From NCBI GenBank assembly GCA_964036045.1, contig OZ038379.1:185590495-185654494 (forward strand): DNA of 64,000 bases, read 5' to 3'. The position numbers and the translations under genes are program-made. Positions within the stretch are counted from its first letter, which is position 1. Every line of letters starts with the position of its first letter. The notes under the pieces were generated by a model. That model saw only the letters and a list, made by a program, of their open reading frames with translations. It did no database searches and was not told where the DNA came from. Below, piece after piece: positions 531 to 33,018 of this stretch. The DNA is from Eutreptiella sp. 'Long Island Sound 2002'. Taxonomy: Eukaryota; Euglenozoa; Euglenophyceae; Eutreptiales; Eutreptiaceae.

Positions 531-599
531 CTGTATTACCTTGGCACCTACTTAGATACCGGCCAAACAATGAAGGAGGCAGGCGGGGAGGGAGGGCAC

Positions 600-2633: not shown

Positions 2634-3201
2634 CTGCGATTGTGCAACGAGGTTCTCTCAAGCGGGCAAGTTGGTTCAAGCGAAAGGAGGGCTTTCGCCC
2701 TTTCAATGGGCTTCTAACCACAGCGGCCTAACACACGTGCTTCGTGCCCCGTGTAGATGAAATGGCTATCTGCATCGTGAGAGGACTTGCTTTTGCTTGC
2801 TGATTTTCTTTGACTTGGGATGGATGCTCAGCATCGCCATCTCTTGTGCACCATGACATGATGTCTCTTCCCCATGCCCTGACCCCACATTCGGAGTCTC
2901 TCTCCTTTGGTCATCATGCCAAAAGAAAACATTCCCAATTGCTTACCGGGCCGTCGCGGTTGACCACTAGGGTTGTCGTAGGAGTTGGCGCGCTTGGTTG
3001 GTCATGTTGTACACAATTGCGTTGCACAATCCATTCACAATATTTAATTTTCTAGCCGCGTTTGGAGTGAAAGTGACCCTATGTGTGCGGAGCGTTCAGA
3101 GGGGTCTTGCCGTGTGTCGGGTGTGGTACGTCACAAAAGCGTCCTGTGCAACACTACACGTTGCCTTAGAACGAACCTTTCACCAAAATCATTGGGGAGT
3201 G

Positions 3202-3655
3202 AACAAGAAGAGGGAACCGTGCATGTTCCTTGATACAAGTTGGTTTCGCGTTTTCATTTGTGTTACGCTATTGTGGCAATTCCTCCGACCAAGAAGCACG
3301 AGGACCAGATGAAGTGATCGTTGCTCAATAATGAACGATGTTGATGAAGTGGATTGGCGCATAGACCCATTTTTCGAACCGCATCCCCGCGCTGCGAACA
3401 TAACCCAAGCATGGCAACAATGCGTTTTTCGGCGCACTATTCAACGCTTGCTTGGTGAACGCAATAGTTGAGAAAACGTGATGTGTTGTGGGTTTCTAGT
3501 GCACAACATCGTAGTGAAGCTTTACGTCCTACTCGAAAGGTTCGCACATCGTTTTCCTTTGTTTGTTCACCAAAGTGCATCAGAACGAACCACCATCTCC
3601 GCTGACGGCGCACGTGACCGAGAGAAGGGCGCGGCTGGCTCATGTTGGGAAACAA
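3202..3655. repeat. Mosaic duplicated blocks, left arm
   Basis: Blocks 3384-3447 and 3478-3560 are reverse complements of 10128-10196 and 10013-10092. Blocks 3202-3292 and 3582-3655 match 10228-10315 and 9925-9998 in the same orientation. Block order still follows the palindrome, so individual 70-100 bp pieces seem to have flipped in place. Confidence 0.6.
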
Positions 3656-3690
3656 TCAAGTAAGTAGTAATCAAGCAAGTTGGTGCTACG

Positions 3691-3822
3691 CGAGACACAA
3701 AATTCACACCAGTTTCGTGGTGTCTTTTGAATTTGGTTGCCCTTCGGTTCCTTGAGCGCATGACATGGTGCTCCTTACAAAACGAAAGAGAAATGGTGAT
3801 CATGTTGGCAAACACAATGCAA
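3691..3822. repeat. Inner end of left inverted-duplication arm
   Basis: About 132 bases here are the near-identical reverse complement of 9777-9910. Similarity ends abruptly at both inner sides, so this pair marks the innermost border of the palindromic duplication around the 6-kb spacer. Confidence 0.8.
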
Positions 3823-11516: not shown

Positions 11517-11766
11517 GTGGTCGATGCGGGCCCTAAGTCCCCGAAGCTTCGCACGGCGCGGCTACGTGTCACGGGGTTGTGTTGCGAGAGCGAAGTTGGC
11601 CTCGTGCACAACACTTTGGAGCCTATTGAAGGTGTCACTAAAGTTTCTGTCAATGTCATCGGACAAATCGTCATTGTTCACTACAATGCCGCGGTTCAAG
11701 AAGTGTGTGTTTTAGTGGACGCACTCAATAAATTCAACCTTGGATGCAGCATTCAGTCTCATTCAG
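11517..11766 (+). CDS. ATPase exon: HMA domain
   Basis: Phase 0 in, phase 1 out (CAG acceptor at 11514-11516, GT donor at 11767). It encodes a ferredoxin-like metal-binding domain with GLCCESEV as metal site and the typical end VDALNKFNL. The closest resemblance I know is the N-terminal domain of plant zinc pumps HMA2/HMA4. Confidence 0.85.
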
Positions 11767-14700
11767 GTGTCACACCACTCCTCTCATAAATCTCATTTGC
11801 GCTGCGCCGATTGCTAGGTTTAGTTGAACGGATAAGGGGGAAAGCGGAGTACATTGATGGGGGATTGGGGATGCGTGCAATGCACATGTGAGTCATGGAT
11901 ACGTACTCGTAGACCAACCCACCCACACGTGTGCACGGATACGTATCGGCAGACCAAGCCACCTATTTCGGGCAAGAGTGACTCACTAGTGGACATGTAA
12001 ACGGTGCTGCAAACGCCGTAGTAATCATGTGGTACAAGGACCTCCCAAAACTAGCGCGCCATGGGTTCCGCAAGCTTTGAGCGGTCTCGTGGGCACCCAA
12101 TGGGGAGAAATGTCATGGGCCTCCAAGTCCGGAGTCGTTGGGGCAACCAACCAACCTACGACGTGGCACTGCTTGAAAAGTGTGTGGTGGACCCTCACCT
12201 AAGTACAACCTAAAACAAACTACGAATATTATTAGTTGTGCTCGTGTCGTAGCAGCCACAGCAGTAGCATGACAGCATCAATAGCACAAACCCTGGTGCC
12301 CCCCCCCCCCCACAAAAAAAATAACACCTACTACGACCGAGTGGAAAGCAGCCATCGGCGGGGGCGTTGCGGGTGCGGGGGCTACTGGTGGCTTGCTGAA
12401 CCCGCATCCAATGTAACACCTCAACCAGCCTCGGGCGGGTCGAAACCCAGTTGTGGGTATGGTTTGGGGAGGCACGGGTCGCACTGTATGTGTTGCGGCG
12501 GGGGGGGGTTACCAACGTGGGGTCTTTGTTGTCCGAGAACCTTCCGCCATCATTGCTGCGCCCCCCGATCCGGTGGTTGCTCCCAGATCCCTGCCAAGTG
12601 CAGCTCACCGGACCTTTTGTGGCTTGGGGACCATCGGCCCCGTGGATGGGCCACTTGGTTTCAATGGTGTCGTGTCCTTGCATGTTTCGATCGCAAACCT
12701 CCGAATCATTTGGCCGTGGGTTGCCCGAAAGTGGGGCGCCTGGAATACTCTACAGCTCCAACACGACATGCCAGCCCTGTACTGTGCCCGCAGTGCCACC
12801 AGGTTTGCAGGGGAGGACGCTTACTCATCTGCACTCCGTATGCCTGGTGCCGTCCGTGTCTCTCGTTCTTTTCAGACCGCGCTGAAAAAGAGGATTTCGG
12901 TCTCCTTCTGCCCCGGGGCTTCGTGATCTACATGGGTGTCCAGGCGGTCTTCTTCGTGGCCGCCATTTACACGTGGTTTGCGTTCCGGGATTCACATTAT
13001 CAAGTGGCGTGGTCTGCCATGGCGGCGTTCCTCCTGTATGGCTTACCGCCCATTGTCCTTAAGGCCGTTCGGAGCCTCAGGCGGTACGCCTTCGACATTA
13101 ACTTCTTGGTAGTGGTGGCGGTTTGCAGCGCTGTCGGTTTGGGAGACATGTTCGATGCCACACTGGTGGTGCTTCTGTTTGGGGTAGCAGGTGCCCTCCC
13201 TCCCCGCCTGCCTCCTTCATTGTTTGGCCGGTATCTAAGTAGGTGCCAAGGTAATACAGTGTGCAAGATGCGAAATGGGAGGGGGCCCAAGGGGACCCAA
13301 GGACCTGCATTGCAGGGCACGGGCACGGCAGTCCAGTACAGGGCAGAGCAGGGCAGTGCAGGGCAGGGCATTGCATTGCAGGGCAGGGCAGGGCAGGGCA
13401 GCTCAGGGCAGGGCAGCTCAGAGCAGGGCATTGCAGGGCAGCGCGGGGCATTACAGGGTGCCCTGCTGCCCTGCTGTGCCCCCTACTTTGCCCTGCCCTG
13501 CAATGCAATGCATTGCCCTGCCTTGCCCCGCAATGCCGTGCAATGCACTGCCCTGCAATGCCCTGCACTGCCTCCTCTCTCCCCTCCCTCCCTTGCTGCG
13601 CCTCCCTCGTTGTCTCTTTTCCTGCCTCCTTTCCCCCTCGCACCGTCCCTCCCCCCCTCGCTGCCCCTGTCTCCCTCCCTCGTTGCCTGCCTGTTGTGCC
13701 TGCCTGTCCCACTCCCTCCACTTCTCCACTTCTCCACATTCTGTCTCTTTCTGTGGGCACGCCTCTTTTCCTCACGGCATCATGCCCCCCTCTTCCACAT
13801 TAACCCCCTCCTTCTCCGAACAGGCCACCCAGCACCTCAGCACACACCAGCAGCACAGGACACAGCACTGCATGCTCCTTTACTTTCAGGCATATTGGAG
13901 AAGGTCTGCTTTGAGAAGGTCCGAAGGGACATCCGAGGAATCGATGTCAGCCACGTGCAAGTGGCGATTCTGGCGGAGCCTGGAAGGAAGGGGGAGGTGG
14001 TCAATGTGGAGGTATTGATGTGTTCATGATTGTCATGGTCCTGGTCATGACTTGTTCGAGATTACGTGAAAGTGCAGCATCGCATCAGAGCACAACTCAA
14101 CGCCTGAACAGCCGAATAGCAATGACACCACCCCGCACGCACCATACCACACCGCCCTTAGTTCTCATGGTAGTCATCGATCTTTACGTTCAAGACAAGG
14201 CTTTGTAGCAGGGCTTGGGGGGGCTGTATGTGGGTGTGGGTTGGGTGTTGGATCCGCCAGACCCCGTGCCCCTCTCAATAGGATGTGGCTGTTGGCACGC
14301 TTCTGGGAGTCCGTGCTGGGGATCAAATACCATTGGACGCCGAAGTAGTCAGTGGCTCGGCAGCGGTGGATGAGAGCGCAGTGACTGGCGAGGCTGCTCC
14401 TTTGAGTAAGGGCCCTGGGGACTCGGTGACTGCCGGTACAATCGTTCAAAACGGGTTCATGGAAGTGAGGACGACGGGCACGGCCAGTGAATCCACAGTT
14501 GCCAGCATTCAGGTGTGGAACTATTCCGCGCCTCATGACTCTATGACGCATTGCGATGGTGTGTCGTGTCATCTGGTGTTATTATCGTGTTGTGGTGTGT
14601 TACGTTGTGTTGTGGTGTGTTGCGTTGTGTTGTGGTGTGTTGTGTTGTGTTAGAGGAGGTCTTGAGGGGAGGCGATGAGGGGAGGTCATTAGGGGGAAGC

Positions 14701-17700
14701 TGCAAGTGGAGGCTCTGATGCGAGGCCCGTAGACGAGGCTGTACGGGGGGGTAATAGGGCAGGCAACCAGGGCAGGTTATGAGGGGCAAGCTACAAGGGG
14801 AGGCTATGATAGGGGGTCCTTAGCGGAGGCACCGAGGGTAGGCACTGAGGGGAGTATACGAGGAAAGGTGGAGGATGTCGGTTCGGATCAGGGCTGGGGC
14901 ACCTTCGCCTGGACAACCCGACGAGAGCAGGCGCGAGACGTGAGATGAAATACGACCACGCGGCCTTGGCTGGGCGCGCGACACCCCGTGCCCTACCATC
15001 ATTTACGACAGCCTTCTCACGTACACTCCAGCACCATGTGCTAACATGGTTGTGGAGAGGTGCACTCGGATGACAAAGGGGAACAGGACGGGGCCGATTG
15101 TGCTCGACCGGTTTGCGAGGGACCTGCATTCAGATGTACAGCAGGGGGTCCGGGGGGTGGGTGGGTGGGTGGTGGGGGATCGAGCTGCCGTCAGCAAATT
15201 TCCGGTTTGTTGTTTGCTTCCATTTTCCAATTGCGTTGAGGAAAGGCAAGCCACAGGGCGCTGGCGCGGCCACCACATCACCGCCGGTGTCGCACACGAC
15301 CACGAGCACAACCGCGGCCACTTCATGGACCCGGAGCCACGCCCGGCCACAGGGCAGCCACTGCCCATGCCCAGGCCCACTCAGTACACGAGGGAGGTCT
15401 ATCAGGGACGCCGTATCGGCGCACCACAGTACCCCCGTATCTTCGGGGGGGTGCGAGGTAAGCAGCGCCACCGCTCCACCTGACGGCTGAGGGTCTGAGG
15501 GGGTGGCGGAATGTCCCGCGCACCGGTCACCCGGTCTTCATCTTGCCCCAGCACCCGTACAGAGATCGCCATGGGCCACTGCTCCCGGAAGTCAGGGAGG
15601 ATAGGGCACCGGGGGGCTTGGAGGCCCCCTGTCGGAGCAACCTTCCCTCCAGAGCTGGGCACCTGATGCCCTCAACATATACACCGGGAGGTGATCGGCG
15701 TGATGCGCTGCTCGCTGTGAGTGTGTGTGTTGTGTATCAACAGATATGTCGACAATCTGCCTGTGCCTGACCTGGCGGTAACGGAGTCTTTGGCGCATTG
15801 TGGCGACAGGCTGCACTTGCCTTTTTTTTGTTTGATTTCGCCGGACCCTGGAGCCCGTTATTCAGTGGCACACCTCCTTCATTCAGTTTGAAGGGTTGAT
15901 TCCAGGACCCCCCCCCCCCTGCCCACCTTCATTAGGTCTCGCCCCCCTCCCCCTCCGGGTCCGGGCTCCGGGGTCCACAGACCTCAGCCCAGGCACAGAT
16001 TTGGTAGGGGACCAGCCTGGTCTCGCACATTTCACGAGGACACCACGGGCCAAATGCTTGGAGCTGCAGCAGACCAATCATGTGTGGCCCCTGGAGAGCC
16101 CCCTCCAAACTTCACAGTCACGGACGTTGGGGCTGCCATCGTGATCCGTGGGGCAAACCGTCCACCCCATCACCCACAAAAGGGTACGCCTTCCCCATCG
16201 TCTCCCACCCCAAAGACCTCAACCAACACACAGGTCACACAAAGAGACACGGCGCTGGACACCGGGTGTACGACACGGTGACCAACCGGTTTTTACAGAC
16301 AGCCCCCCCCCCTCGCCGCCGCTCTTCTTCAGGAGGGAATGGATGTGCCAGAGAAGGTCCGTCCTCCACAAGCTCCGTCCACACGGTTTGTCCGCCAGCC
16401 GGACAGGCCCCACTTTGTGCTTGTCGCTGCACCAGACGACGGTGCTGCCCCCCCCCCCCCCCCCCGGGTACGCTGCGGGTGTGTACACTCGTGCTGCCTT
16501 TTACGGCCCCCAACGACCCAAACCGCGGAGGCCCTCCAAACGGTGGATGGCCCACCCTCCCACGGCTGCTGTGCCACTGCCTCGGAGCCTCTGCCCCTGT
16601 GGTCCACCGAATTCTGGGTCCTTTTTCGCGGGCACTACTGGGGCATAGTGCAGGTGAACCGCGTCGCTTTGGCACCGCCAACGCACGCCATCTGTTCTGC
16701 GTAATTTGGCCCGCCTTCAGGGGGTTTTCCCATTTTGAGGGGGGTGAAGTATCGGCCACGGACGTGGCATTGGCTGGAGGGCGTACCGCGCCGCCGCCGT
16801 GATTCTCCGCCTTCGGGGGCATACGGTGTTGCCGTGACAACCCCCGTCGTCGCCAGAACACCCGCTGCACCTGCTGCACAAAGGAGGACCAGCTCCCTGG
16901 ATGGAAGGTGGATTGCTGCGATGGATCGTGATTCTCCCTCTCGCTCTGCGCCCCACGGCGTGCGCTTGGATGGGACGGAGGCTCGTGTAGGAGGCCTCAG
17001 GACCTAATTCAAAGCGGTTACTGGCTGTTGTTTGGGGGGGGGGCTGGGGGCTGTGGGGGAGGGGCAGCAACTCCCGGCGATTCCGGAACGGTTCGAGGGC
17101 GCTTGGGCGCGGCTGGGGGCGACTGTAGCGGAATGCACCGCTGCCCCTGGGGGGGAGGGGTTCAGAGGCTTGACACACTGCCCCCCCCCCCCCCTCTTAC
17201 CTCCTTGTTACGGACCCTGTGTGGCAGACCCCCTCCCCCGCACCTTGCCACTCCCCCGCACCTGCCACTCCTCCGCCCCACCCATCGACCGCCACGCTGC
17301 GCAGGCCATCGTGGAGGAGGCACAGGCCAAGCCGTCGTCCATCGGCGTGTTTGTGGACCGGTTCGCCCGGTTCTACACCCCGGCGCTGCTCGTGTTCGCG
17401 GTGGCGGTGCTCTTCATCCCGCCGCTACTGACGAGCCAACCGTTTGGGGCGTCGCTGCACACGGCGTTGCTGATTCTCGTATGATGCCCCGCTTCATGTG
17501 CCCGGCCCCGGGCGTTGCCTCGTGTCGGCCGTGGTGTTGGCCTGTGTGCCTGGGCGATGTACCGGACCCGGTCCCGCGCGAATGTGCCCAAAGACCACGT
17601 GACTTCCCCTGCAACGGTCCCGGTCTTTGTGGGCTCTGCAGACCAACGTGCCCTGCCCTCACGCCCCCAATGCTCTTGACCCCCTTCCCCCCCCCTTTTT

Positions 17701-20700
17701 GGCGCACGGTACTCACCAAAAGGCACACCCAATGAAAATCAGGGGACAACAGTGCGGAATTGCTACATAACCCTTGCATTCTCGGGGGTCCCCAACGCCA
17801 CGCACGGTGACAAAATCAGAAGTGGCCACCTCACCCCTGCCTTCTCCGAGGCCTGGAAGAGGGCGGAATTGCTACGTAACCCCTGCATTCTCGGGGTCCC
17901 CAACGCCAAGCGCGGTGACAAAATCAGAAGTGGCCACCTCACCCGTGTCTTCTAGGGAGCCCCCAAGAGGGCGGAATTGCTATGTAACCCCTGCATTCTT
18001 GGGGGAAGTGGCTATGTCACCCACGCCATCTCACGGGCCCCCAAGAGGGAGAGATTAGTACATAACACGTGCATTCGCGCGCGTCCCCAACAAACGGGCC
18101 AAAATCAGAAGAGGGTGGAATTGCTATGTAACCCCTGCATTCTCGGGGGGGATCCCTGAGAATGCAGGGGTTACATAGCAATTCCGCCCTCTTTTCGGCC
18201 CCCAGAAAGGGGTGAGGCAACCAGTTTTGGTTTTTGTCCTCTTTGTTTGGGACCCCGGAGAATGCAAGGTTTACGTAGCAAGTGTGCCCTCTTTTGCGCC
18301 CCCGAGAAGGCAGGGCTGAGGCAGCCACTTCTGATTTTGTTTCCTTTGTTGGGGACCCCCGAGAATGCAGGGGTTACGTACCAATTACGCCCTCTTTCGG
18401 GCCCCGATTAAGGCAAGGGTGCTGCTGGTGTGTGCTGAGGTGCTGGGTGGCCTGTTCGGAGAAGGACGGGAGGTTAATGTGGAAGAGGCGGGCATGATGC
18501 CGTGAGGAAAAGAGGCGTGCCCACACAAAGAGACAGAATGTGGAGAAGTGGAGAAGTGGAGGGAGTGGGACAGGCAGGCACAACAGGCAGGCAACGAGGG
18601 AGGGAGACAGGGGCAGCGAGGGGGGGAGGGACGGTGCGAGGGAGAAAGGAGGCAGCGCGACAACATGCAAAACCAATTGCGCATCGCATCGCCCCTTCTC
18701 CCCCCACTTCCCCGCCTCCGCCGCCCCCAACACAGTCCGCAGGTCATGGGAATGACTGAATGTGAAGCATTTGCGAGCGCTGTGTGTTTTGTTTGTGGGT
18801 TCGTGCCTCCGGCGCTGGCGGGCGGGGGTAGGGGAGCGGTTTTGTGGTCAAACTCGGCACCGGACAGAGGGGCCGTGCCTCGTGCAGTTGGGGCGGAGCC
18901 ACGCGAAGACATGTGCCCCGGGGACGCGTTCCCTCTCGATGTGGAGGGTCTGTTCCCGATTTGTGGGGGCGCGCAGGGGGTGTGCACGCGGCGGTTGTGG
19001 TGTGTGGCCCCCCCAAACGCCTCCTCCGCGGTCGAGACCAAGAGAGCCTCGTCCAGTTCATCGGCAGGCGGAATACCGCTGAGGCAGTGGATGGCGTTGA
19101 CGGGGGCAGAGCGGCGCCGCGCTCAACGCCATCCAACGGCTCACCCGTAGTCCGGCTGCCGAATGGCCCGTGCCTCCGTGTCTCGACCTGCGGTGCCCGT
19201 GTCCACAACGTCCCCACGCACCGGACGTCATCGGTTGGTCGGGGCCTGTGCCGGTTCCCCCCGCCGTCGCGGACGGTGGGTGACGCAGCGCTGGCGTCCC
19301 ATGCCCCGCGTGCCCTGCGAATGCTCAGGTGCTGGCGTGCCCGTGTTCGATCGTCATGGCCACCCCCGTCGCCACGGCGTGTGCCATCGCCGCTGCCGCA
19401 AGGGCTCAGGTGCTGATCAAATCCGGTGGGGTAGCCCTGGATCGGCTGGCGGCGCTCAACACGCTCGGGTTGGACAAGACGGGCACCCTCACGGAAGGGT
19501 CCTTCCGGGTCACGGATGTGTACATGGTCCCGGGGGAGAGATTGCAGGAGGTACCGTGGCTTTGTGCTGCTGCTGAGCCTCTGGATGGGCCTGTGTACGC
19601 CAGCACGCGGCGTTGGAGGGGGAGGAGGGGAAGGAGGGGAAGGAGGGTAAAGGTAAAGGTAAAGTGCTCGGGCGCTCACCGAACTCCAGCGTAACCGTGA
19701 TCCCTACCTGTCCCTCGCAGCATCCCTTCCGGCTCGCGGGGTCACAGACACCCTAGCGCCTAGGACACTGCGTTCCGACCCCACTGGGTTTCGAACCAAG
19801 CACCTCTAGTTCAGGCTTCACGTGCATGACCGCTGAACTACGCGACTCTCTCAGGATGGGAAGGAGGGTTTGGGGGCTGGGGGGTGGGGTGGGGGGGCAA
19901 CGGTACGGCCCCGCCCCCCACCCGCCAGTCGCCACAGCAACGACCTCAGGCCCGATACACTTCAGGCGGTATTGGCCAGCATCAGTCGTCCACAGTGCGC
20001 AGGGGTCCCTCCACGAAACTTGAACGAATGCGTTACGCCGGACGTACTACGCCGGGGCCGTGGTGCGTGGCTCAGCACTCCCCCCGGGGGATTGAGCAAA
20101 TGGATTGAGACGGCATCGATGCCCCGCCCCCCGCCCCCTCCCGTGCTCGTTCTGGTTCACTCCCCCCCGGGACCGGGACGGCACGCACAGACAGCACGTT
20201 GCCCTGCAGTGCCGTATGCCCCCTGGAGGTGTGGATGGCGGTGGTTTTGTAGGTGAGGGGCCCGGGGGGGTGGCACCATCAGGTCGGGGTGCATATGCCG
20301 TTTGATGCCTTCGTCCTCACGCCCTTTGTTGTGTTTTGTGGAGGCGGGCCTCCGGGCTGTAGTCGGATGAATGTCCGCTGCTCGCCAGCCCCCGGGAGGA
20401 GTGAATCGCGTCTGAATTCCGGGGGAGTGAATCCCCACAAGCACAAGAGGGAGGAGGGGGGGCATTCGCGCAGCCTCTCAATTCCGGGAAAGTGAGGGAT
20501 AGTGATCCAAAACGAGCATGGGAGCAGGATGGGGGGGGGGGGGGAGAAATGGCCAGTCGTGTGTGCAACGTTTTGTTGCTGTGCAGCGGGGCACAGAGGT
20601 GGGGTTGGGTCGCCGGTTGGTGCTCTCAGTTTCATGCATTTGATTGGTGGAGGCAAGTAGGGACACCTCCCCCGATTTTGAGTTCAAAAGGTGATTGGGT

Positions 20701-23700
20701 GGTTTTGGTGGTGTATCCGGACTCAAAAGGGCTACAAATGGGGAATGGCATCACTGTTCAGTACATCCTCATAGGAGCACCAACAATAGCCTCTTTTTTT
20801 TGTCAAACTTTGACATTCTACGCCGTGGGTGCACCCCACACATTCAAGAAGCGGTGTTGTGGATTGGATAATCTCCGTTGGTAGTATTTGGCTCCAGGTT
20901 TGGGTATTGTTACTACTCCGGGCAGGATCCTGTCTGCAGTGTAACAGGCATGGACAGCGTACGCGTGGACAGACGCCACGTCCACGAAGGGAGTTCCAAT
21001 GCAGCACTACAAGGCAGTGGATCCACAGCACCGTGTGGAGGGGCTTCTGGGTGTGCAGTGGGCTGGGTATGAGTGCATAGCTCTTTGTACAGGGCTGGCG
21101 CCTGACACGAACAGCATGTCAGCGCGGACCCAAGCACCACCTCTGTGCCGTTCAGGTGCCTGGCAGCAATTGGCCCAACGTTGACGAGTCACCACATGCA
21201 GCCGATGATCACAGCGAAGGGGGAGGCTGCTGCCACGGCCATAGTCATGAGCACGGGCATGCGTGTGGGCATGGCCATCATCATCATCATCATCATCATG
21301 ATGGCGTGGGTGGTAAGGACCATGGGCATGGGCATGGACATGGGTGTGGGCATGGACACGACCATGGGCATGGGCATGAGCACGGACACGGCCATGGGCA
21401 TGAGCCTGAGCATGGACACGGCCATGGGCATGAGCCTGAGCATGGACACGGCCATGGGCATGGGAATGGACATGGGTGTGGGCATGGACACGGCCAAGGG
21501 CATGAGCCTGACCATGGGCACAGCCATGGGCATGGGAATGGACATGGGTGTGCACATGGACACGGCCATGGGCATGAGCCTGAGCAGGGGCACAGCCATG
21601 AGCATGGGCATGGACATGGGTGTGGGCATGGACATGGATACGACCAAAGGCATGAGCCTGAGCAGGGGCACAGCCATGAGCATGGACACGACCATGGGCA
21701 TGGGAATGGACATGGGTGTAGGCATGAGCATGGACACGGCCATGGGCATGGGAATGGACATGGGTGTGGGCATGAGCATGGACACGGCCAAGGGCATGAG
21801 CCTGAGGATGGACACGGCCATGGGCATGAGCCTGAGCAGGGGCACAACCATGAGCATGGACACGACCATGGGCATGGGAATGGACATGGGTGTGGGCATG
21901 AGCATGGACACGACCATGGGCATGGGAATGGACATGGACACGGCCATGGGCATGGGAATGGACATGGGTGTGGGCATGAGCATGGACACGGCCAAGGGCA
22001 TGAGCCTGAGCATGGGCACAGCCATGAGCATGGACACGGCCATGGGCATGGGAATGGACATGGACACGGCCATGGGCATGGGAATGGACATGGGTGTGGG
22101 CATGAGCATGGACACGGCCATGGGCATGAGCCTGAGCATGGGCACAGCCATGAGCATGGATACGGCCATGGGCATGGGAATGGACATGGACACGGCCATG
22201 GGCATGGGAATGGACATGGGTGTGGGCATGAGCATGGACACGGCCAAGGGCATGAGCCTGAGCATGGGCACAGCCATGAGCATGGACACGGCCATGGGCA
22301 TGGGAATGGACATGGACACGGCCATGGGCATGGGAATGGACATGGGTGTGGGCATGAGCATGGACACGGCCAAGGGCATGAGCCTGAGCATGGGCACAGC
22401 CATGAGCATGGGCACGGCCATGGGCATGGGAATGGACATGGACACGGCCATGGGCATGGGAATGGACATGGGTGTGGGCATGAGCATGGACACGGCCATG
22501 GGCATGAGCCTGAGCATGGGCACAGCCATGAGCATGGACACGGCCATGGGCATGGGAATGGACATGGACACGGCCATGGGCATGGGAATGGACATGGGTG
22601 TGGGCATGAGCATGGACACGGCCAAGGGCATGAGCCTGAGCATGGGCACAGCCATGAGCATGGACACGGCCATGGGCATGGGAATGGACATGGACACGGC
22701 CATGGGCATGGGAATGGACATGGGTGTGGGCATGAGCATGGACACGGCCAAGGGCATGAGCCTGAGCATGGGCACAGCCATGAGCATGGGCACGGCCATG
22801 GGCATGGGAATGGACATGGACACGGCCATGGGCATGGGAATGGACATGGGTGTGGGCATGAGCATGGACACGGCCATGGGCATGAGCCTGAGCATGGGCA
22901 CAGCCATGAGCATGGACACGGCCATGGGCATGGGAATGGACATGGACACGGCCATGGGCATGGGAATGGACATGGGTGTGGGCATGAGCATGGACACGGC
23001 CAAGGGCATGAGCCTGAGCATGGGCACAGCCATGAGCATGGACACGGCCATGGGCATGGGAATGGACATGGACACGGCCATGGGCATGGGAATGGACATG
23101 GGTGTGGGCATGAGCATGGACACGGCCATGGGCATGAGCCTGAGCATGGGCACAGCCATGAGCATGGGCATGGACATGGGTGTGGGCATGAGCATGGACA
23201 CGGCCATGGGCATCAGTGCAGCGCCCCTCCTGGATCACCGCATCTCGGGTCATCGTGGCACTGGGCCCAGTCGCTGCCACACCCCCTTAGCGACTTTGGG
23301 GCATGGAAGGCACTGGATTCGATGCAGGTGTGCCTGCTCCCAGTGCCAAAACCCTCCGTTCACTCCTCAAATCCTCACGCTGGCGCTGCCTCTGAGACAG
23401 ATACAACATCCCTGCGCAAGACGAGTGAGGGTGCGGGTGCGGTGCAAATCGGGATCCCGGTGCATATGTGACACAGGCGCAGTAAGCGTGCGGACTTCCA
23501 AGGTTGGGTGGGGAACCTGCCGCCAGCCATTCCAGAGCTGGCAAACACCTGAGCCCCCATGATCCTCACGGGTCAACATGCGTAGAATGCCCATTGGGGT
23601 ATATGGCTCAGAATATCATAGGGAAACTGAGGCACCGAATCAACCCCATTTTGACCATTCCCTCATGTGGCATGTGTACCACCCGGGCTGGTAGGTGTGT

Positions 23701-26700
23701 GTGTGGGGGTGATGCAGAGTGATGGGTGGGGATGTGTTGGGTGGGTGGTGATGGTGCGGTCGTAGGGTGGTGGGCGGAGATGGGTGTTGTAGTAGGAGTT
23801 GCGGGTTGGGCCACTTGCATATTGTGGCTCACCTCCTCCGACATGCGCCGGGATACAACGGAGCGCGTCCGGGTATGAGATATTCCTTGCTCTCGCAGCC
23901 TCACCCATTTGGTTGGCTTGCTGGGCTTCCATAAGGTGTCCGAAGGTGTTTGAGGCTTCGGCCTCCCAAGCAAAGCTGTGCTTGGCCAGGTTCCGATTTG
24001 TGGGGAACAAACCTCGGGGAATACGTAACCACGGCCTCCCCGCAGGGATGTTGTTGAACTTGCCTGTTGCTTTGAGGTGGGGTCACACCAGGTCCGCGGC
24101 CTTGATGCTTCCCCTCCACATTCCGTTTCTTTATCACCCTGGGCACCCATGGCATCCGCATGGGAATCCTGCTGGCAGGGGGGGTGGGGGCTGATGGGTC
24201 ATCTGCATCATCGTCCTCTCTATACGCCCGAGTCCATTGCGTGCAGCTGACCTCCTGATGGATGCTGCCCATGCGGCGGCAAAGAACCCACAGGGGTACC
24301 GCCAAAATGGCAACAGGGCCATGGTCACCCCCAGCCAAGCACGACCCGCAATCCCCCAAACGATGGTGGCATGCACAACCGCGGTGGAGTGGGTGGTGAC
24401 AGTGCGGGCAGAGCGGGCGGATGACTCCACCTCGTTGGGGGTGCCGCCTTTGGCTGATGCGAGCATGTCTTTGTGGATCATACGGGAAGCTTGCAGTGTT
24501 GCTTGGATCGGAATGGTGTGGGTGGAGCACACCGCACCAGTTCCAGTTGACCCCTCCCTTTGTGCAGTCCAGTGGCGAAGAGGTTTTTCAAACTTCCTCA
24601 TCTGGGATCCACCATCAGATATGCAGAGGAGGGCAAAGGGTAGGGGACTGTCAGGTGGTGGATTGAGAGCCATGCGCTTGGCGGTGCGCTTGCCTACATG
24701 ATGCGGCACTGAGGATGGTGGTTGAGCGGTGGGCAGTCTATGCACATTGCTGCTGTCTTGATGACGACCCCACGACCTTGACGCCCTTGCGATGGAACGG
24801 TACGGTGCGCAAGAATGCCCATGGTCCTTCAATATACGCCGCAGGGGCGCCCCCCTGGGTCCGACAATGGAGCGGCGCCGCAACGCAGTGAGCGTTGCCA
24901 ACAACGTACAACCCACACCCCAACCCGGGTGTCGTCTGCTGGGGGCAGACCTTCCGCACCCTGTGCACGGGTTGCAGAACTGTCTCTGATGTTGCTCTCC
25001 AATGTTCATTCCGAACACGTCTTGGGGCCGGCAACCCCCCTGATCCCCTGACCAGCCGCTTCCATGTGATCGTCAGAGGCGCAGTCCGGCTGGCGTTGCT
25101 GCGACATGGCCAGTGGCTGTGGGGTGGCACGGGCATTCGTTGACTCGGGTCCCATAAGGAATGCCTTGAGACTGCCTCATACCTGCACGGCTCCTGCCTT
25201 GGGTGTTTGTGGTGGGAGGTCTACATCCCACTGCACCCGGTCTGGGACTGACTGCATGTGAAATGTCTTGTGAGTAGTGGGACCCCAACCCATCCACATA
25301 CCGCCTGCAGGCACACCTCCACACAACACAACCCTGTGTGTGGAACCACAGACCTCCTCCACCTTTATGCCCCCCCGCTCCTGCTCCTTGGCTTGGTCAC
25401 CAGCAACACTTTCTTGATGCCGTGCTGTGTGCAGACAACACACCGAAAAGCATCGATGCAGTAGTTTCTTGCTCCGACAGTGCGTTTCGTTTCTCACACC
25501 AATTTGCATTGTTTTCGTCCCGGCACCTTTTTGAAGTTATGTGCGTTTGAGTGGGTGCAATCCAGTGGCTCTTGGTGGGTGGCCGTGTTGAACAACATCA
25601 GTCTACCAAAGACACCACCTCCACCTTCGCTTAGCCCACCTTAATTAGGTCTCACCTCCCCCTCCTGCTCCTTCTGCCCCACTCGCTGCTCCTCTTCTGT
25701 GCGCCGGGTTCTGAAGTGTGTTCCCTGGGGCCCATGTGACTCTCACTTCCATGCAGCGCCACAACCTCATCCTGCACTACGCCGCAGCCCTTGAGGCCAC
25801 ATCCAGCCACCCCGTCGGGATGGCCCTCGTGCCCTATGCCCTTGGCGCCCACAGTGAAAAGGGCCACCTCTCGGACCAGTCGATCGCGCTGGGATCTGGC
25901 TATGGTTTGCCCCCGGCGCTGGGCATTAAGGTGTGCGTGGGACAGGTATGCTGAAACGGAAGGGGTTGGGGAGGGGATTGGGGGAAGGTGGGGAGAAGGT
26001 GACGACGTTTGGGAGGAGGAAGAGGCCGAGGGCCGAAACGCACGAGGGACCTGGCGGTGGACCACAGTGCCAAGGCACCCCTGCTTTTCCACGGGCGGAC
26101 TGTCTGGAATGCTGTGCACCGCTGATATGTAATATTTGGTGACCCGGAACTGCCTGGCGCGGAGTTGCATTCAGCATAGCAGCGGTGGGGAGCACCCTCC
26201 AAACTTCATGGTTTTGGTAAAGTATGCCCACGCAGGCACGGACACCAAGGGCGCAATGAAGGGGCGGCACCTGTGGGCAGAGGGACAACCATCACACTCT
26301 CACGTACCAGAGACACGTCCCCCCCCCCCTGCGATCTGGGGACAGACAATGTTGACCATTTCCTCCTGAAAGCCCAACGGTAGCACACCCCTAATGAGCC
26401 TTTACGGTACTCACCCCGCGACTCCCAATCGGGTGGATTAAAGTGGGCCTCCACCACCGCGACATTTGCTGCGCATCCCACGGAAGGTGCTATCCTAATG
26501 GGGCAGCAGTGCCACTGCCATAATGAATTCCCTACAACCAGAAAAGAAGCTTCAGAAAATCACATCACCAGCCATGCTGTTACATCAACCCGACTGTCAG
26601 AAAGCACCTTGGGCATTGTGGGGGGGATGTGTTTTTGACTGGCAGCTTCAAAATAGGGGGTTTGGGACAAAGTCTTGGTAGGCCCGAGCTCCCAACCGTG

Positions 26701-29700
26701 GCTAGGAGGCGGGGGGGTGGGGGGGGGCTGAAAAAGGGACCGCCATTTTGACGTGGGAAAATGAGTTTACTGCAATTTTCGGATTTCGAGCCACAAAACG
26801 TTTGCGTAGGTCACGGCTCTGTGGGACCGTGTGCCCCTTCACTGTGATTTCAGCTCCTCAGTCCAACCGCCTCAGTCCAACAGTGCACTGCATTCTTGTG
26901 TTCCCGCACACAAGACGCACTCACAAGTGTAAGGCGGGGTTATGCATTGGACAGGGAAAGGAACCATTGATGTGCCCCCCACGATGATTGGGGCCTGTTG
27001 GACTTTGCCTGAGCGAGGGGGGGAACAATGGTCGGTTCTGATAGACTGAATGTCCCCGCCAAAGACAAACCTGAGCTGAGGGTGGGGCCCCCCGTGTGGG
27101 AAGGTACCTTGGGCGCAGAAAACAGCAAAAATGTTGGACAGTGGCCCACTCAGCCTGCGGAGTTGTCATGGAGTCAGCCCCGGGAGAAGTTCTGGCATCG
27201 TTGACAAACAACAAACAACAATCACGAAATGGGAGCAGAGCACCAGAGGAACGGCCTGGAAGAGCTCGTAGGTCTGTACTGCATTCCGTGTTCTGCGGTT
27301 GTTTGCCTGTTGCATTTTGGGTCCCTATACGACGGCCATGGCATGTATGTTCACGAAGTGGAGGAGGCCTGAAGCTGCCCTCCCACCGCCCCTGGCCTCC
27401 ACAGCATCCGCATGCATGGCACTGCACTGTGCTGACGGGACATGAACAGAAGGGCACAGCCCTCGCGAAGGAGTGGGTTGGGGAGCTTACACTCAGGGGG
27501 GGGCGGACAATAGGAGGCGCACGAAAACGGGTGACCGTTGAGGCCCCTGTCAGACAAGGCACTGCGCGCGGTTTTGGCGGTCGTACACACGAAACTTGGA
27601 CGGCTGGTCTCCGCTCCGGGAAGTCCCGCCACGTCAGGTACTTCAGCTTTGCCCTCTGCCACGCGCGACCCCATTGCCGGGCCCCCTTGTGCCTCAGCCC
27701 AAAGCCTACGGCTGTGCCCCAGTTCCTGATCCGCACAGCCACACGTTGGCCCCCGTTTGTCTTGTGTCACAGGGTATCGTAGGGACGGTGGAACAAACGC
27801 CCGTTGCGGTTGGCAACTGGGGGCTGATGAAGCGCCTGGGGGTGGCCTTGCCGGAGGGTGTGCGCAAAGATGGGGTGTTGCCGTGGGACCAGTGGATGAA
27901 GGATGCCAAAACCATCGCCTTCGTGGCGCTGGGCGGGCGCTTGGAACTCGCGTTGGCGTTGTGCGACCGCCCCAAGACAGACGCCGCAGCGACAAGTGTG
28001 CAGTGCGAGGCGGGGATATGTGCTGCGGGGGTGGGTACGGGGTGGTGGGCAGGGAAGCAAACGGAAGGGCCTCTGGGGCCCCGCTGCTGTGCCGTGCACG
28101 CATGGGGTAGTCAAGGAGGGAGACAACGTCAGCCGGGTGCCTCTCCCATGGCTCTGTAGTCGGGGTCTAGAGTTTGTGGAGGCATAGCACCTCGTGTATG
28201 GCACACTGCACCAGCCACAGCAACAGGAGGTCTATGCCACAGGCAGCACACCGCACCAGCCACAGCAACAGGAAATGTATGCCACGGGCAGCACACTGCA
28301 CCAGCCACAGCAACAGGAAATGTATGACACAGGCAGCACACTGCACCAGCCACAGCAACAGGAAATGTATGCCACGGGCAGCACACTGCACCAGCCACAG
28401 CAACAGGAAATGTATGACACAGGCAGCACACTGCACCAGCCACAGCAACAGGAAATGTATGACACAGGCAGCACACTGCACCAGCCACAGCAACAGGAGG
28501 TCTATGCCACAGGCAGCACACTGCACCAGCCACTCGTAGACAGCGAATCCAACTGTTCATGAGCGGAGGATTTCCTCGCTTCAAGGTGCACATGTACGTA
28601 CAGACCGCATAACACTTCAGCCTTTCTGGTGCACTCAACCCCCCCTGCACCTCCCTCCTCCACTATCAGTTCAAGTGCTGCAAGACGCTGGAGTATGGGT
28701 GGCTCTTCTGACTGGGGACCTTCCGGACTGCGCATCAGCATTGGCCCAGTCGGTCGGCATCATGGAGTCTCATGCGGCCATGCAGCCCATGCAGAAGCTT
28801 GAGTGGATCCAGAAGCAACAGAAATCCAGGCGGGTGGTGGGCATGGTGGGCGACGGCATCAACGATGGGCCTGCGCTGGTGCACGCCGACGTGGGCATTG
28901 CCATGGGTATGCGACGCTCTGCAGGGCACACGGCCCCGATGTGGCCCCCTGTTCCAGGGTCCCATGCAGTCGGCCGCGTTCTGCACACAACTGCGTATCG
29001 TTGAGCGTACGTTCCGGGGAAGCCATTGCCTATTGTCGTGCTGCGGGGCGACCACTTGGGTGGGTGGGTGACCCATTTTTTGGGCCGTTTTGCTCAGCCA
29101 TCCCCCCCCCCCCCCCCAAAAGGATGGGGTCCGCTTTGGGGGGGGCTTGTGTGGTGGAGGATCGGGAAGCGGGGGCTCTCAAGCTCGTCACACAAGGTCA
29201 CACAGCCCAAAGTTCCCTTCCCTCACGTTAGCGGTGGCCCACAGGCCCGGTCCATGAACTTAGTTGTGGACTGTGGCAGTGTGAGGGGCGCGTTCGTTCA
29301 CGTTCGGTGTGGCCGCCGCGCCCGTTTCGTGAACTCAGTTTGTAGCCCTCAGTGCTTAGTGCACTGACTGTTGACTGTGCTTTGAGCACCAGAGCCCCAG
29401 CCACCAGAGGGTTCAAGACTCACCCTGCCCCTGGTTGCCCCTGTGATTTGACGCCGGCTTGTATGTGTGGATCCCGTTTCACGTGTCTATCACGAAGGCA
29501 GCAGTGGCGGTATTACCCGGAGCTCCCTGATGGCATGGGTACAGCGCATAGTTGGCGCTAACACCTGCCGCAATTTTTTATGACACCTGCCGACACCTGC
29601 CAAAACTTTTAGTGACACCTGCTGACACCTGCCGGACCTATGCGCGCGCGCATGTGTGTGTGTGTGTGTGCCAGATCCTTTTGACTGCCTGCTGTGCCCG

Positions 29701-32700
29701 CCCACATTGGTCGTCGGTTCGTTGGTTTCTCTCACAAAGTGTGTGTGTGTGAGTTTCCATGTGCCTCTACCAAACTGCCTGACACCTGCCGACACCCGCC
29801 GAAGATTTTTGTGACACCTGCCCACATCTGCCGTGGCAGGTGTTAGCGCCAAGTATGGTACAGCGGATGCTTGAGCAGAGAGGGGGTACGCGTGCATGAG
29901 GACGGCTTCGCCTGTCTATCTTGAAGGCAGCAGTGGTGGTTCCCTGGCCTCAATCAACCCGCAAAGGCCCCCTGAGCTCCGGGCACACTGCAACACCTAA
30001 AGCAACTCACGCCGCAGAGCAATATGGCTGGCAGAAGGGTCCCAAACCAAACCCAAACCCAAACCCTCAACCCTTCCTCAGGGTTGGGGTCTGCTTTTTG
30101 GGGTGTTGGGTGGAGGAGGACGGCTGGACGGTGACACCTGTGTGGACAGTGAGGGCTACTTCATGACGTTCGACTACCAATGGCATTGGGGTGCAGAGGA
30201 CTACCATTGGTCCCCAACAGCGTGGTGTCCTTCCTCCAAACCACATGGCTGTGCCTTTGGGCGTACCGTGCGCTGTGCGCGCGCTGTGCGAAAAGTTGGC
30301 TGTTCTCCACCACTGGGAGTTCGGTAAGTTCAGAAGATTGAAAGGACGTCATTGAATGGCTGCTGCAGTGGACGGGGCTATAGGGGGCAGAATTTAGGTC
30401 CCTGGGACCCATGGCAAGCATCAGATGTTTGAATTTTTGAGTTTTGAATTGATTGTGCATGATTCCGCAGGTGGGTGGTTTTCAGGGTTGTTACCTGGAT
30501 AATCACCGTAATAATTGGCGCTGTGCGCGCGCTGTGCAAAAACGCCCCCTTTGGGCTGGGCTGACCTGTGCATCCCTCCTCCTGTTTGCGTGGGTACGTT
30601 CGGGTGGGTGGCCAGGTTCGTGTGTGGGTGGGTGACTCAGCCGGGGCTGGCTAGAGGGCAACAGACCCCCACCCCCCCTCTCTGCCCCTGGGGTCCGTCA
30701 GCAATGGCCTGGCCCGTGTGCCCCGCACACGCGACAGCACGAGCCAAGCGATGTTCTGTTGTAGTCAGGGGGTTCGTTCCTCAACCCTGTCCTTCGTTTG
30801 GCTTGCTGGTGCTGGCCCAGGAGCGACAACAACATGGGGAATGGATGGAGGCCATTGACCCGGCTTCACGTTGATCATCGCGCACCGCCAGGGGCAGACC
30901 TCTGCTCAAGGGCTGTTCCTGGAGCGGGGGTGGGAGTCTGAATGGGGCTGGCGCTAACGAGCGCCCTGAGGGTCGCCGGTTGGTTATGCTTCAACCGCCT
31001 GCGGTAGCCGTTTGACCGCCGTCGGTCACCCTCCGACCGCCGTAGGTCACCCTCCACCGCCGCAGGTTGCCGACCACCTGCGGTTACCCTCCAACTGCGC
31101 GCCGCCACTGCCCAACCGCCGTCGGTTCACGCCCAAGTATGACTGAGTGTATGGTCGCCCCCCCTCTCCCCTCCTCCCCTCTTTTCACCGCCACGCAGAA
31201 GGCGACTGGGAACTACACGCAGCAAAGTGTCCGACCATCCGGGAATGCCTCTATCTGACGTTCGTCTTTGGGAAAGAGAAGACTCAGGGACCTGCACTGG
31301 CAGAGTGAAAAATAGGCCATTGACCACATGCTGTGGACAGTTGACCACCAGCGCAGGCTTAAGGGGTGGTCGTTAATGAAAAGTGGAAAAAACATCTTCT
31401 TGTGAAAGCGCCACCCTGGGGGACAGTGGGATTGAAGGGGGCATTGGGGGAGGGGACGGAATGTACACCCAGACACAATGTAAAAAGGGCGCCACTGACG
31501 CGCAAACGGCACATCCTGCCACATCCAGCACAGCCCCGGCACACCAATGACGGGGCTCCGCGAACGCGGAAACGACACCAGCAAGAGCACCGGCCGCAGC
31601 GGCCGACAGAAAGCAGCGACCCGACGCAACATGCGAACGGAAGAACGGGTGACCGTCCAGGGCCCCGTAAAGGAACAACAACCCGACGGAATGTCACACA
31701 GGGGGCAGCCATTTAAAAGGTTGTTCAGCTGCCACGTCTCACTGGTGTGCCCCGCATCCGTCCGTTCATGGGGTCAACGCAAATAAAACCGCAAAATTGG
31801 GGCCAAGGCACTCGCCAATTGCAGTGCATTTATATGAGATGTTAAACATGGCGATTTCTGTGTGCCTTCCGGCGCCAGGCAGTGACCCCGAACCAAGGGT
31901 CATGCCATGCGGGGTACGCAGCGATGTCCCGAGTTTGCGGGGCGAGCGAGCCCCCCTCAGTGGCCAGAGTCCCGGTAGTTGACCATTTGTTGACCATCGA
32001 CCGCTGGGGTCCCTATCAAGACTGGCGACTAGGACCAATGGTTCTCCTGAACGTGGTTGAAAAACGGCTCCTGTTCACCTCAAAATGGACCATGGCATGG
32101 CACGACGGTGTGATAGACGCCTCACATTGAACATCCATTTGCAATCATCTGATAGCCCAATTGACGTAGAAGAAGAAGGGTCCTCATTGGAGACGCCTAC
32201 ATGACACGTTGGTGATTGTCCTGAACTGTCAGGACAATCGTCCTCAAAACAAGCAAAAAAAAAGGCCAATTCTCACTTCAAAAATGGACTGTTGCATGGC
32301 ACAACAGCGTGAGAGACGCCACATTGAACACCCATTTGACAGCACAGCCCTCATTGGAGACGCCTACTTCACACTGACAATTGTGCTGAACTTTCAGGAC
32401 GATCACCCCAACTACGAAAACGGTCGCTTTTGGACACCAAATTGGCCACAAAATGGCCTGGACGAAGCTTGTTTCAGATAATGCGCAGTTGCTCTGCGGT
32501 CATTTTGAGCTGCTTGGATCCCGGATTTGAGCCACCGTGTGCCCCAAAAGACTTGTTACTCGTTTGCAGCTTGCTGCTGCTAAAATACGTTGCTCACCCT
32601 GGACCCTAAAGTGGGCTGTAAAACCTCCACTGGGAGACCCAGACCGCTGAACACGTCCCCAAAGGACCGCCCTACGCTCCAGTCCCATTCTGCAGGTGCC

Positions 32701-33018
32701 GGTGGTACCGCGCTAGCGGCTCAAGCCGCCGATGTGCTGCTTCTGTCCGACTCCCTTTCGCTCCTGCCGGTCCTGCTCCGGTTGGCGCGGCGCTACCGCT
32801 GCGTCGTGCAGTGGAACATTGCGCTGGCCGTGGCCCTCAAGGCCGTGATGCTGGGCCTCAACTTCGTGATCCTGCTGCCGCTGTGGACAGCCGTTGTGTC
32901 GGACATGGTGGCATTGGTGCTGGTGATTGCCAGCGGCCTCACCCTCTTGGCCCCTCTGAAGACGTCGAAGGCCGTCATCGACCGCCACTACGACTACAAC
33001 AAACTGATAGAGTCATGA
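11517..33018 (+). CDS. HMA: P1B-2 type Zn/Cd-transporting ATPase with internal His-rich domain, 11 exons
   Basis: Exons: 11517-11766, 12876-13190, 13890-14011, 14282-14512, 17305-17478, 19329-19550, 21156-23327, 25757-25945, 27773-27995, 28670-28906, 32696-33018. All introns are GT-AG, all phases agree, and the sum is 4458 nt (1485 residues plus stop). Order: HMA domain with GLCCESEV; helices MA-M2; actuator domain with TGE; M3-M4 with the CPC metal site; DKTGTLT; His-rich insert of 724 residues; SSHP; VGQGIVG; TGD; GDGIND; M5-M6. The last helices contain N-x7-K-x20-D, close to the P1B-2 signature for Zn2+/Cd2+/Pb2+, although the usual DxG reads DMV. It should export divalent metal using ATP. 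The C-terminus stops 25 residues after the last helix, without the metal-binding tail of plant HMA2/4. The start exon was not found: an in-frame TGA lies nine codons before 11517 with no ATG between, so an upstream exon is needed. Confidence 0.85.
12876..13190 (+). CDS. ATPase exon: helices MA, MB, M1, M2
   Basis: The acceptor is CTTTTCAG. The split Asp codon joins the HMA exon. Four hydrophobic segments follow one another, with the P1B landmark FDINFLVVVAV before M1 and LLFGVAG at the end. Phase 1 out; the Gly codon is completed by the exon at 13890. Confidence 0.85.
13300..13580. repeat. GGGCA/GCCCTGC low-complexity tract in intron 2
   Basis: Units of GGGCAGG and GCATT, switching strand sense near 13465 so that the tract partly folds back on itself. 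Counterpart of 290-530. Confidence 0.7.
13890..14011 (+). CDS. ATPase exon: start of actuator domain
   Basis: Phase 1 in, 0 out. Encodes ILEKVCFEKVRRDIRG and ends at VVNVE. It connects M2 to the actuator domain; the equivalent part of plant pumps is somewhat longer. Confidence 0.78.
14282..14512 (+). CDS. ATPase exon: actuator domain with TGE
   Basis: 77 codons, phase 0/0. Encodes DVAVGTLLGVRAGDQIPLD, the dephosphorylation loop TGE (14384-14392) and STVASIQ before M3. Acceptor AATAG, donor CAG-GTGTGG. Confidence 0.88.
14513..17304 (+). other. Intron with GTGTT microsatellite and G/C runs
   Basis: A 2.8-kb intron. It has a GTGTTGTG tract at 14570-14650, irregular GGGGAGG-rich units to about 14870 and C runs at 15908, 16450 and 17180. 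No further conserved ATPase segment is missing here and no other gene was recognised. Confidence 0.6.
17305..17478 (+). CDS. ATPase exon: M3 and start of M4
   Basis: 58 codons, phase 0/0. Encodes AIVEEAQAKPSS, the helix ALLVFAVAVLFIPPLL and the start of the next one. It joins directly to the CPC exon to give LLILVLACPC. Confidence 0.87.
17750..18415. repeat. Tandem array of a dispersed repeat, with inversion at 18150
   Basis: Units of about 90-110 bp contain GGAATTGCTATGTAACCCC, GCATTCTCGGGG and a CAAAATCAGAAG spacer. Several head-to-tail copies run to about 18145, after which the orientation reverses. Arms 18111-18144 and 18158-18191 form a nearly perfect 34-bp palindrome at the switch. The same family occurs at 34290-34390 and 50711-51240. 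It lies in the intron before the CPC exon. Confidence 0.75.
18420..18655 (-). repeat. Inverted copy of 13600-13855
   Basis: Reverse complement of the region just upstream of the exon at 13890, covering the CTCCACTTCTCCAC tract and the GCTGCTGGTGTGTGCTGAGG end. An intron segment of the same gene has therefore been duplicated and inverted into a later intron. Confidence 0.7.
19329..19550 (+). CDS. ATPase exon: CPC metal site and phosphorylation motif
   Basis: 74 codons, phase 0/0. Helix M4 carries CPC (19338-19346), the intramembrane metal ligands, followed by SIVMATPVATA. DKTGTLT (19473-19493) contains the aspartate phosphorylated by ATP. Ends MVPGERLQE. Confidence 0.93.
19781..19855 (-). other. 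tRNA-like A-box/B-box sequence (possible SINE head)
   Basis: On the minus strand TAGTTCAGCGG resembles a pol III A box and GGTTCGAAACC a B box, at tRNA-like spacing. No acceptable acceptor or anticodon stem forms, so this is not a tRNA gene. It lies in the intron before the His-rich exon. Confidence 0.4.
21156..23327 (+). CDS. ATPase exon: giant His-rich metal-binding domain
   Basis: Exactly 724 codons, phase 0/0, acceptor CCGTTCAG and donor CAG-GTGTGC. After VPGSNWPNVDES and a Cys-Cys pair comes an eight-His run, then several hundred residues in which every second residue is His, or in places Asn, Cys, Gln or Pro. The regular part (about 22002-23140) is a 42-residue (126-bp) unit with 16 or 17 His and one Cys, such as GHEPEHGHSHEH then GHGNGHGCG. 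The last about 35 codons are non-repetitive and lead into SMQ. No ATG opens it, and the flanking exons are both phase 0, which supports an internal exon of the pump. Proposed role: cytosolic buffering or sensing of Zn2+. Because its phases are symmetric it can be skipped without a frameshift. Confidence 0.8.
22002..23140 (+). repeat. 126-bp coding minisatellite with 378-bp higher-order period
   Basis: GAGCCTGAG recurs at 22002, 22128, 22254, 22380, 22506, 22632, 22758, 22884, 23010 and 23136, always 126 bp apart. Variants (CAT or CAA before GAGCCT; GGACACGG or GGGCACGG later in the unit) recur every third unit, which indicates amplification of a 378-bp trimer. Confidence 0.93.
23328..25756 (+). 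other. Intron after the His-rich exon
   Basis: A 2.4-kb intron. A long open frame on the other strand (24134-25018) has no recognisable domain and looks like a chance frame in GC-rich DNA. Confidence 0.55.
25757..25945 (+). CDS. ATPase exon: N-domain with SSHP
   Basis: 63 codons, phase 0/0. Encodes the helix RHNLILHYAAALEAT and SSHPVG. The HP dipeptide (25808-25813) binds the adenine ring in P1B pumps. Ends at VGQ, completing the glycine motif with the next exon. Confidence 0.9.
27773..27995 (+). CDS. ATPase exon: N-domain, GxG and return to P-domain
   Basis: Phase 0 in, 1 out. Begins GIVGTVEQTPVAVGNWGLM, so VGQ-GIVG forms the nucleotide-binding glycine motif across the splice. Ends RPKTDAAAT. 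The split Ile codon joins the exon at 28670 to read AATIQVLQDAGV. Confidence 0.88.
28200..28540. repeat. 45-bp minisatellite in intron
   Basis: A 45-bp unit (CACCAGCCACAGCAACAGGA followed by a GTATGCCAC-type stretch and GGCAGCACACTG) is repeated about seven and a half times with few variants. It lies wholly within the intron 27996-28669. Confidence 0.9.
28670..28906 (+). CDS. ATPase exon: P-domain with TGD and GDGIND
   Basis: Phase 1 in, 1 out. Encodes LQDAGVWVALLTGD (TGD at 28711-28719) and MVGDGIND followed by GPAL, the Mg2+ site. GPAL replaces the usual APAL. Ends GIAMG. Confidence 0.93.
29549..29855. mobile_element. MITE-like element with 18-bp terminal inverted repeats
   Basis: TTGGCGCTAACACCTGCC at 29552-29569 is the exact reverse complement of 29835-29852. 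A TA lies at the same distance outside each end and may be the target duplication. The interior repeats GACACCTGCC many times and contains a GTGTGT run. There is no coding capacity. Confidence 0.65.
30590..30770. repeat. Duplicated module A (copy 1)
   Basis: About 180 bases starting GTGGGTACGTT recur at 36730-36910 in the same orientation with few differences. Confidence 0.8.
31470..31705. repeat. Duplicated module B (copy 1)
   Basis: Reverse complement of about 63540-63750. The copies share the CCCGACGGAATGTCACA end and the GGCCCCGTAAAGGAACAAC stretch. Open frames run through it on both strands, but no protein family was recognised. Confidence 0.75.
32696..33018 (+). CDS. ATPase last exon: M5, M6 and C-terminus
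   Basis: Phase 1 in, TGA at 33016-33018. Encodes AGGTALAAQAADVLLLSD, then helix M5 with N-IALAVAL-K and helix M6 with the aspartate 20 residues after the Lys. The protein ends 25 residues later at HYDYNKLIES. Confidence 0.93.

Follow-up and report, generated by a model that had tools for sequence, protein, structure and literature searches.

The window analyzed here, a 64,000-nucleotide stretch of contig OZ038379.1 of Eutreptiella sp. 'Long Island Sound 2002', carries on its forward strand the gene of a predicted zinc/cadmium pump of the P1B-2 ATPase group, in which an exon of 724 codons encoding a histidine-rich repeat (exon 7, 21156-23327) lies between the parts encoding the phosphorylation domain (P-domain) and the ATP-binding domain (N-domain). 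The most likely reading, to which we give a probability of about 0.62, is that exon 7 is a real coding insert and that the loop it encodes acts as a tethered, disordered metal buffer or sensor in the linker between the two domains (P-N linker). The position of the loop, its composition and the recurrence at one site of repeats carrying His-Gly, His-Asp and Cys-Cys ligands are seen in the sequences or predicted from them; the function of the loop as buffer or sensor is inferred.

Exon 7 and its inverted copy

Exon 7 was found to be as the preliminary description had it: its 724 codons contain no stop, it is in phase 0 at both ends, and it is placed between exons located at 19329-19550 and 25757-25945. 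Its borders read ccgttcAG/GTGCCT and ATGCAG/GTgtgcct. The encoded residues include 260 His, 245 Gly, 64 Glu, and 22 Cys. Most of the exon consists of a tandem array to which Tandem Repeats Finder (TRF) assigned a period of 126 bp and 15.1 copies; the anchor-to-anchor spacings (n = 12) correspond to 42 residues in 10 cases and to 26 residues in the other two. The density of 16-17 His per 42 residues previously attributed to the repeat holds in nine of the ten 42-residue units, the remaining one having 14 His. The one match obtained at E <= 0.01 when the insert was compared with the PDB sequences, a likeness to pyridoxal kinase, was read as low complexity and rejected.

The open frame says little in itself, since other frames are also open through the repeat: over exon 7, the next forward frame shows no stops and one reverse frame shows a single stop. 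More can be learned from the splice sites. Scored with a matrix built from the gene's other nine donors, the donor at 23327 ranks first among the 335 GT dinucleotides in the interval 19551-25756, and the acceptor at 21156 ranks sixth out of 306 in the same interval. That both splice sites should by chance occupy phase-0 positions compatible with the frame has a probability of about 0.002, which is a rough value and indicative only, the training sets comprising 9-10 sites.

A second copy of the gene lies head to head with the first one (C2:185568917-185593127), and each of the 11 exons recurs in it with unchanged phases and GT-AG borders. Outside exon 7, the two copies are 98.1% identical (43 differences, 12 gap columns), with a ratio of nonsynonymous to synonymous substitution rates (dN/dS) of 0.29. 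The inverted copy's exon 7 has 498 codons, 176 of them for His, and no stops; its identity to the exon in the window is 97.7% over the first 43 codons and 98.0% over the last 33, whereas its array has periods of 90 and 162 bp versus 126 bp in the window. The array has thus turned over between the copies while the exon, its phases and its splice borders have stayed. In this inverted pair, exons 5, 6, 8, and 9 are 100% identical, whereas introns 1 and 10 can hardly be aligned, a pattern which suggests gene conversion across the middle of the gene.

Inserts at the same site in paralogs and relatives

The strongest support for exon 7 comes from the comparison with other pumps, which were sought in the window's own assembly (2.28 Gb, 2205 contigs) and among protein records. 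One paralog, located on contig C10 and referred to here as C10, consists of a single open frame of 1102 codons, intronless in the insert region, in which an insert of 142 residues including 64 His and 29 Asp lies between ...DKTNTLTEGHFRVTDVYIV and TAAPAM..LRYAAALEYKSTHP; since this frame is uninterrupted, splicing is not in question there. A transcript-derived protein, P0001 (EG_transcript_2232), carries a Cys-pair repeat of 318 residues, 48 of which are Cys, at the insert site. The alignments with the P1B profile TIGR01525 break at positions 273 (window product), 275 (C10), and 274 (P0001) of the profile. The placement of a His domain between the two catalytic domains (P and N) of a Zn/Cd pump, as first proposed from the window, was supported, and a long metal-ligand repeat is placed likewise in C10, P0001, and the inverted copy. 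In the structure predicted for C10, an intact pump fold surrounds a disordered loop.

The other paralogs differ in this respect. In C4 and C24, the interval separating the DKTGT exon from the one that follows showed no His/Cys repeat in its forward-frame open stretches of at least 35 codons. In C7, which matches P0002 at 269 of the 269 visible residues, there is a short GCACC stretch at the site, and the front part of the gene is in another frame. In C4, the interval between the equivalents of exons 6 and 8 (L062, 4971-8678) holds 741.6 copies of TTTCG. Both C10 (L009) and C7 (L010) show DKTNT in place of DKTGT, and of the 335 homologs retrieved in which a DKTxT motif is present, P0002, i.e., C7, is the only one with DKTNT. 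In a tree of 26 rows, P0001 falls in the same pump clade as the window protein; three changes of the insert label are required, at least two of which are forced by well-supported branches, and shuffled labels do equally well, so that the tree is compatible with a single origin of the insert as well as with several.

Among the homologs retrieved, long loops at this site are rare. Three protein searches, of which the best 120 records each were kept, yielded 340 distinct records including the window's own protein (P0023); the loop was measured by pattern in 322 of these, the 18 lacking one of the two motifs being dropped. Among these 322, the loop of P0001 alone exceeds 100 residues, and four loops exceed 50 residues. 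One of the dropped records, P0127 (DKSGT), has an acidic loop of 70 residues at the site, with two His and no Cys. Passages of a 2023 review describe the extensions of eukaryotic P1B pumps as almost exclusively terminal (PMC10654040), and the predicted euglenozoan mid-pump inserts are an exception to the statement made in these passages. The preliminary description knew of no P1B pump with an insert at this place: as regards the literature this stands, no description of one having been found in titles and the first parts of abstracts on Euglena metal pumps, HMA4, His-rich P1B pumps, and the Euglena genome (most subscription journals being outside this scope), but C10, P0001, and the inverted copy do carry such inserts. 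A cadmium/zinc-transporting ATPase is listed as increased in abundance in E. gracilis treated with Cd and Pb, in passages which make no mention of an insert (PMC7023027).

Possible role of the loop and alternative explanations

In the mechanism we favor, a long, disordered His-rich loop would emerge from the linker between the P-domain and the ATP-binding N-domain and would chelate cytosolic Zn2+ or Cd2+ near the cytosolic side of the pump, so that more metal would be available locally to the entry site in the membrane. The metal-loaded loop might also become compact and bias the P-N hinge, so that the activity of the pump would be tuned to the metal load. That the loop would bind metal, pass it on to the entry site and control the hinge is proposed by analogy with the HMA4 C-terminus and the His-rich loops of other transporters.

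Plant HMA2 and HMA4 are likewise P1B-2 pumps with a long Cys/His metal-binding region, and passages on the HMA4 C-terminus, in which 13 Cys pairs and 11 His are counted, describe it as a high-capacity zinc chelator and sensor (PMC10654040). This region is C-terminal in HMA2/HMA4, whereas that of the window pump lies inside the large cytosolic loop between the P and N domains. The bacterial ZntA-type pump (4umv/4umw), the metal-binding part of which is N-terminal, has no such insert, and 598 of its 603 residues can be aligned with the parts of the model other than the loop. P0001 shares both the pump clade and the insert site with the window protein and differs from it in the ligand, its repeat being made of Cys pairs instead of His-Gly. 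His-rich cytosolic loops are also present in metal transporters of the CDF (AtMTP1) and ZIP (IRT1) families, where they are described as binding or sensing metal in passages on IRT1 and in reference titles on MTP1 (PMC8933713); since these are unrelated non-ATPase transporters, the resemblance is a functional one.

Several points weigh against the metal-buffer reading. Within the older half of the array, a pair-weighted frame test gave a synonymous share of 0.51 in the His frame and 0.04-0.36 in the other five frames, whereas counting distinct change types gave 11/23 synonymous in one reverse frame versus 5/19 in the His frame; this test is mixed and was not relied on. The units of the exon 7 array are too homogenised for selection to be read from their comparison, and a hexamer-based repeat keeps its frame unaided. 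The His/Cys loop is no general feature of the family, since C4 and C24 lack a His/Cys repeat at the site and C7 has only a short GCACC stretch, and because of the DKTNT motif the pump activity of C10, like that of C7, is uncertain. Exon 7 might be optional, since skipping it leaves a normal pump: the loop would then be 36 residues long, as compared with 29-34 residues in 104 of the 110 homologs measured. Passages on HMA4 attribute high-affinity Zn binding to the di-Cys motifs only, and apparently not to the His stretch (PMC10654040), so a His repeat may buffer metal with low affinity.

The skipping of exon 7 leads to another explanation, in which it is a cassette exon and the metal status of the cell would decide between a plain pump, made by splicing 19550 directly to 25757, and a pump with the His loop. 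The phase 0/0 exon between phase-0 neighbors and a skip product that is normal in terms of loop length and family profile fit this possibility, which we nevertheless consider unlikely, though well worth keeping in mind, because the donor of the His exon is the best-scoring one in the interval, suggesting efficient use, and because the loop is present in C10 although no intron interrupts that gene at the site. The intron formed on skipping would have 6206 bases; the ten introns of the model have 270-3789. Rather unlikely, too, is a loop that mainly controls trafficking or turnover of the pump, and not catalysis, as the metal-binding termini of Pca1p or ATP7A do: passages of the review cited above assign to the termini of eukaryotic P1B pumps a role as sensors in trafficking or stability (PMC10654040), but the present loop is located inside the catalytic loop.

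A neutral expansion, similar to that of a satellite, in a loop that tolerates inserts, i.e., a coding repeat lengthened by slippage and having no metal function, would account for the near-identical 126-bp units, the array turnover between otherwise nearly identical copies, the self-maintained frame of the hexamer, the absence of His/Cys repeats in C4 and C24, and the acidic, His-poor loop of P0127. It is improbable in view of the three differently composed inserts (His-Gly, His-Asp, and Cys-Cys) present at one site of a metal pump, all of them rich in metal ligands. That the array lies outside the pump mRNA, as a satellite within an intron or as a nested gene of its own, might be thought from the several frames open through it, but the single frame of C10, the transcript-derived relative, the borders kept in the inverted copy and the splice-site ranks make this highly improbable.

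The reading of the loop as a buffer or sensor could be taken further: the P-N linker of euglenid P1B-2 pumps might be a recurrent landing site for interchangeable metal-ligand repeats (His-Gly, His-Asp, and Cys-Cys), with the metal loading of the loop directly gating the closure of the N-domain. This extension is doubtful, although it has some chance of being right; if true, it would place an allosteric metal switch inside the motor of a P-type ATPase. The euglenozoan pumps, with metal-ligand repeats of different chemistries predicted within the catalytic loop of several paralogs, offer a direct approach to the question of whether the use of ATP by a P-type ATPase can be controlled by the metal load, and they provide a concrete gene set for euglenid metal handling.

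Gene model and family assignment

The forward-strand gene model comprises 11 exons (Table 1), and the product without exon 7 has 761 residues, the start exon being missing: no upstream exon with a start codon was found, and the self-inverted matches upstream of the gene gave no clear coding exon. The model product passes TIGR01525 both without the insert (449.3 bits) and with it (430.1 bits; cut-off 346.25). Without the insert, it also passes the Cd/Zn profile TIGR01512 (379.0 bits, cut-off 313.5) but not the Cu profile TIGR01511 (305.6 bits, cut-off 397). The catalytic motifs TGE, DKTGT, HP, TGD, and GDGxND are all present in the spliced product. P1B-2 pumps are marked by CPC in the fourth transmembrane helix and by a Lys and an Asp in the final two; here CPC is encoded in exon 6, and the K and D of the last two helices align with those of P0005. 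Judging from the profiles and motifs, the gene is thus assigned to the P1B-2 pumps, and Zn2+/Cd2+ transport is predicted.

An N-terminal HMA domain is common in P1B-ATPases, although not universal: the Pfam HMA score is 20.0 bits in the window product, under the cut-off of 24.8, and 32.1 bits in C10. By eye, the product ends about 20 residues past the last hydrophobic stretch (...SKAVIDRHYDYNKLIES), with no long Cys/His C-terminal extension.

Table 1. Location of the pump gene exons, the repeat array, and the inverted copy
Feature	Position	Strand	Basis
Exon 1, HMA-like domain with CCESE	11517-11766	+	Acceptor/donor and phase fit
Exon 2, first transmembrane helices	12876-13190	+	Gene model; similarity to P1B relatives
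Exon 3	13890-14011	+	Gene model
Exon 4, actuator domain with TGE	14282-14512	+	Gene model; E1-E2_ATPase profile
Exon 5, transmembrane segment preceding CPC	17305-17478	+	Gene model
Exon 6, CPC ion-binding helix, DKTGT phosphorylation site, end GERLQE	19329-19550	+	Gene model
Exon 7, predicted His-repeat insert, 724 codons, phase 0/0	21156-23327	+	Splice-site ranks; inverted copy; position in C10 and P0001
126-bp tandem array within exon 7	21320-23213	+	TRF; unit analysis
Exon 8, start of ATP-binding N-domain (RHNLIL...SSHP)	25757-25945	+	Gene model
Exon 9, N-domain/P-domain	27773-27995	+	Gene model
Exon 10, P-domain TGD and GDGIND	28670-28906	+	Gene model; Hydrolase PF00702
Exon 11, last two transmembrane helices, TGA stop	32696-33018	+	Gene model
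Inverted copy, exon 1	2393-2633	-	Exon-by-exon comparison
Inverted copy, exon 2	600-911	-	Exon-by-exon comparison
Inverted copy, exons 3-11 including the 498-codon His exon	C2:185568917-185589087 (left of window)		

Source organism

The prasinophyte origin supposed in the preliminary description was not borne out, the genome being euglenozoan according to the PF05149 matches, the best relatives of the pump, and the tree. The paraflagellar-rod family PF05149, which we take to be specific to Euglenozoa, gave 39 matches in the window's genome and none in any of the 14 control genomes. The best relatives of the pump include two EukProt proteins with the prefix 'EG_transcript', which presumably denotes Euglena gracilis: P0001 is 52% identical across 55% of the query, and P0003 is 51% identical across 54%. 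The possibility that the window's genome is that of the species of P0001 was rejected: since the identity of P0001 to this genome is at most 69% among the 91 matches listed, P0001 comes from a different species. On two contigs of about 110 kb, C1662 and C605 (L011, L012), intronless, bacterial-looking P1B pumps 29-37% identical to the queries were found, which are perhaps due to bacterial contamination of the assembly.

Other repeats in the window

Scans of the window with Rfam (at gathering cut-offs) and for tRNAs gave nothing. Intron 6 harbors on the reverse strand (19751-19845) an element resembling a tRNA-derived short interspersed nuclear element, with what we take to be A and B box motifs; at least 40 copies at 96% identity or more are present in the genome (40 of 997 first-look candidates were scored). 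A 45-bp tandem array of 7.4 copies occupies positions 28201-28533 in intron 9, between exons 9 and 10. The tandem repeats at 17747-18415 and 50711-51231, with periods of 103-171 bp, seem to have a 'cattctcgggg'-like stretch in common, partly in opposite orientation, and possibly belong to a single dispersed family.
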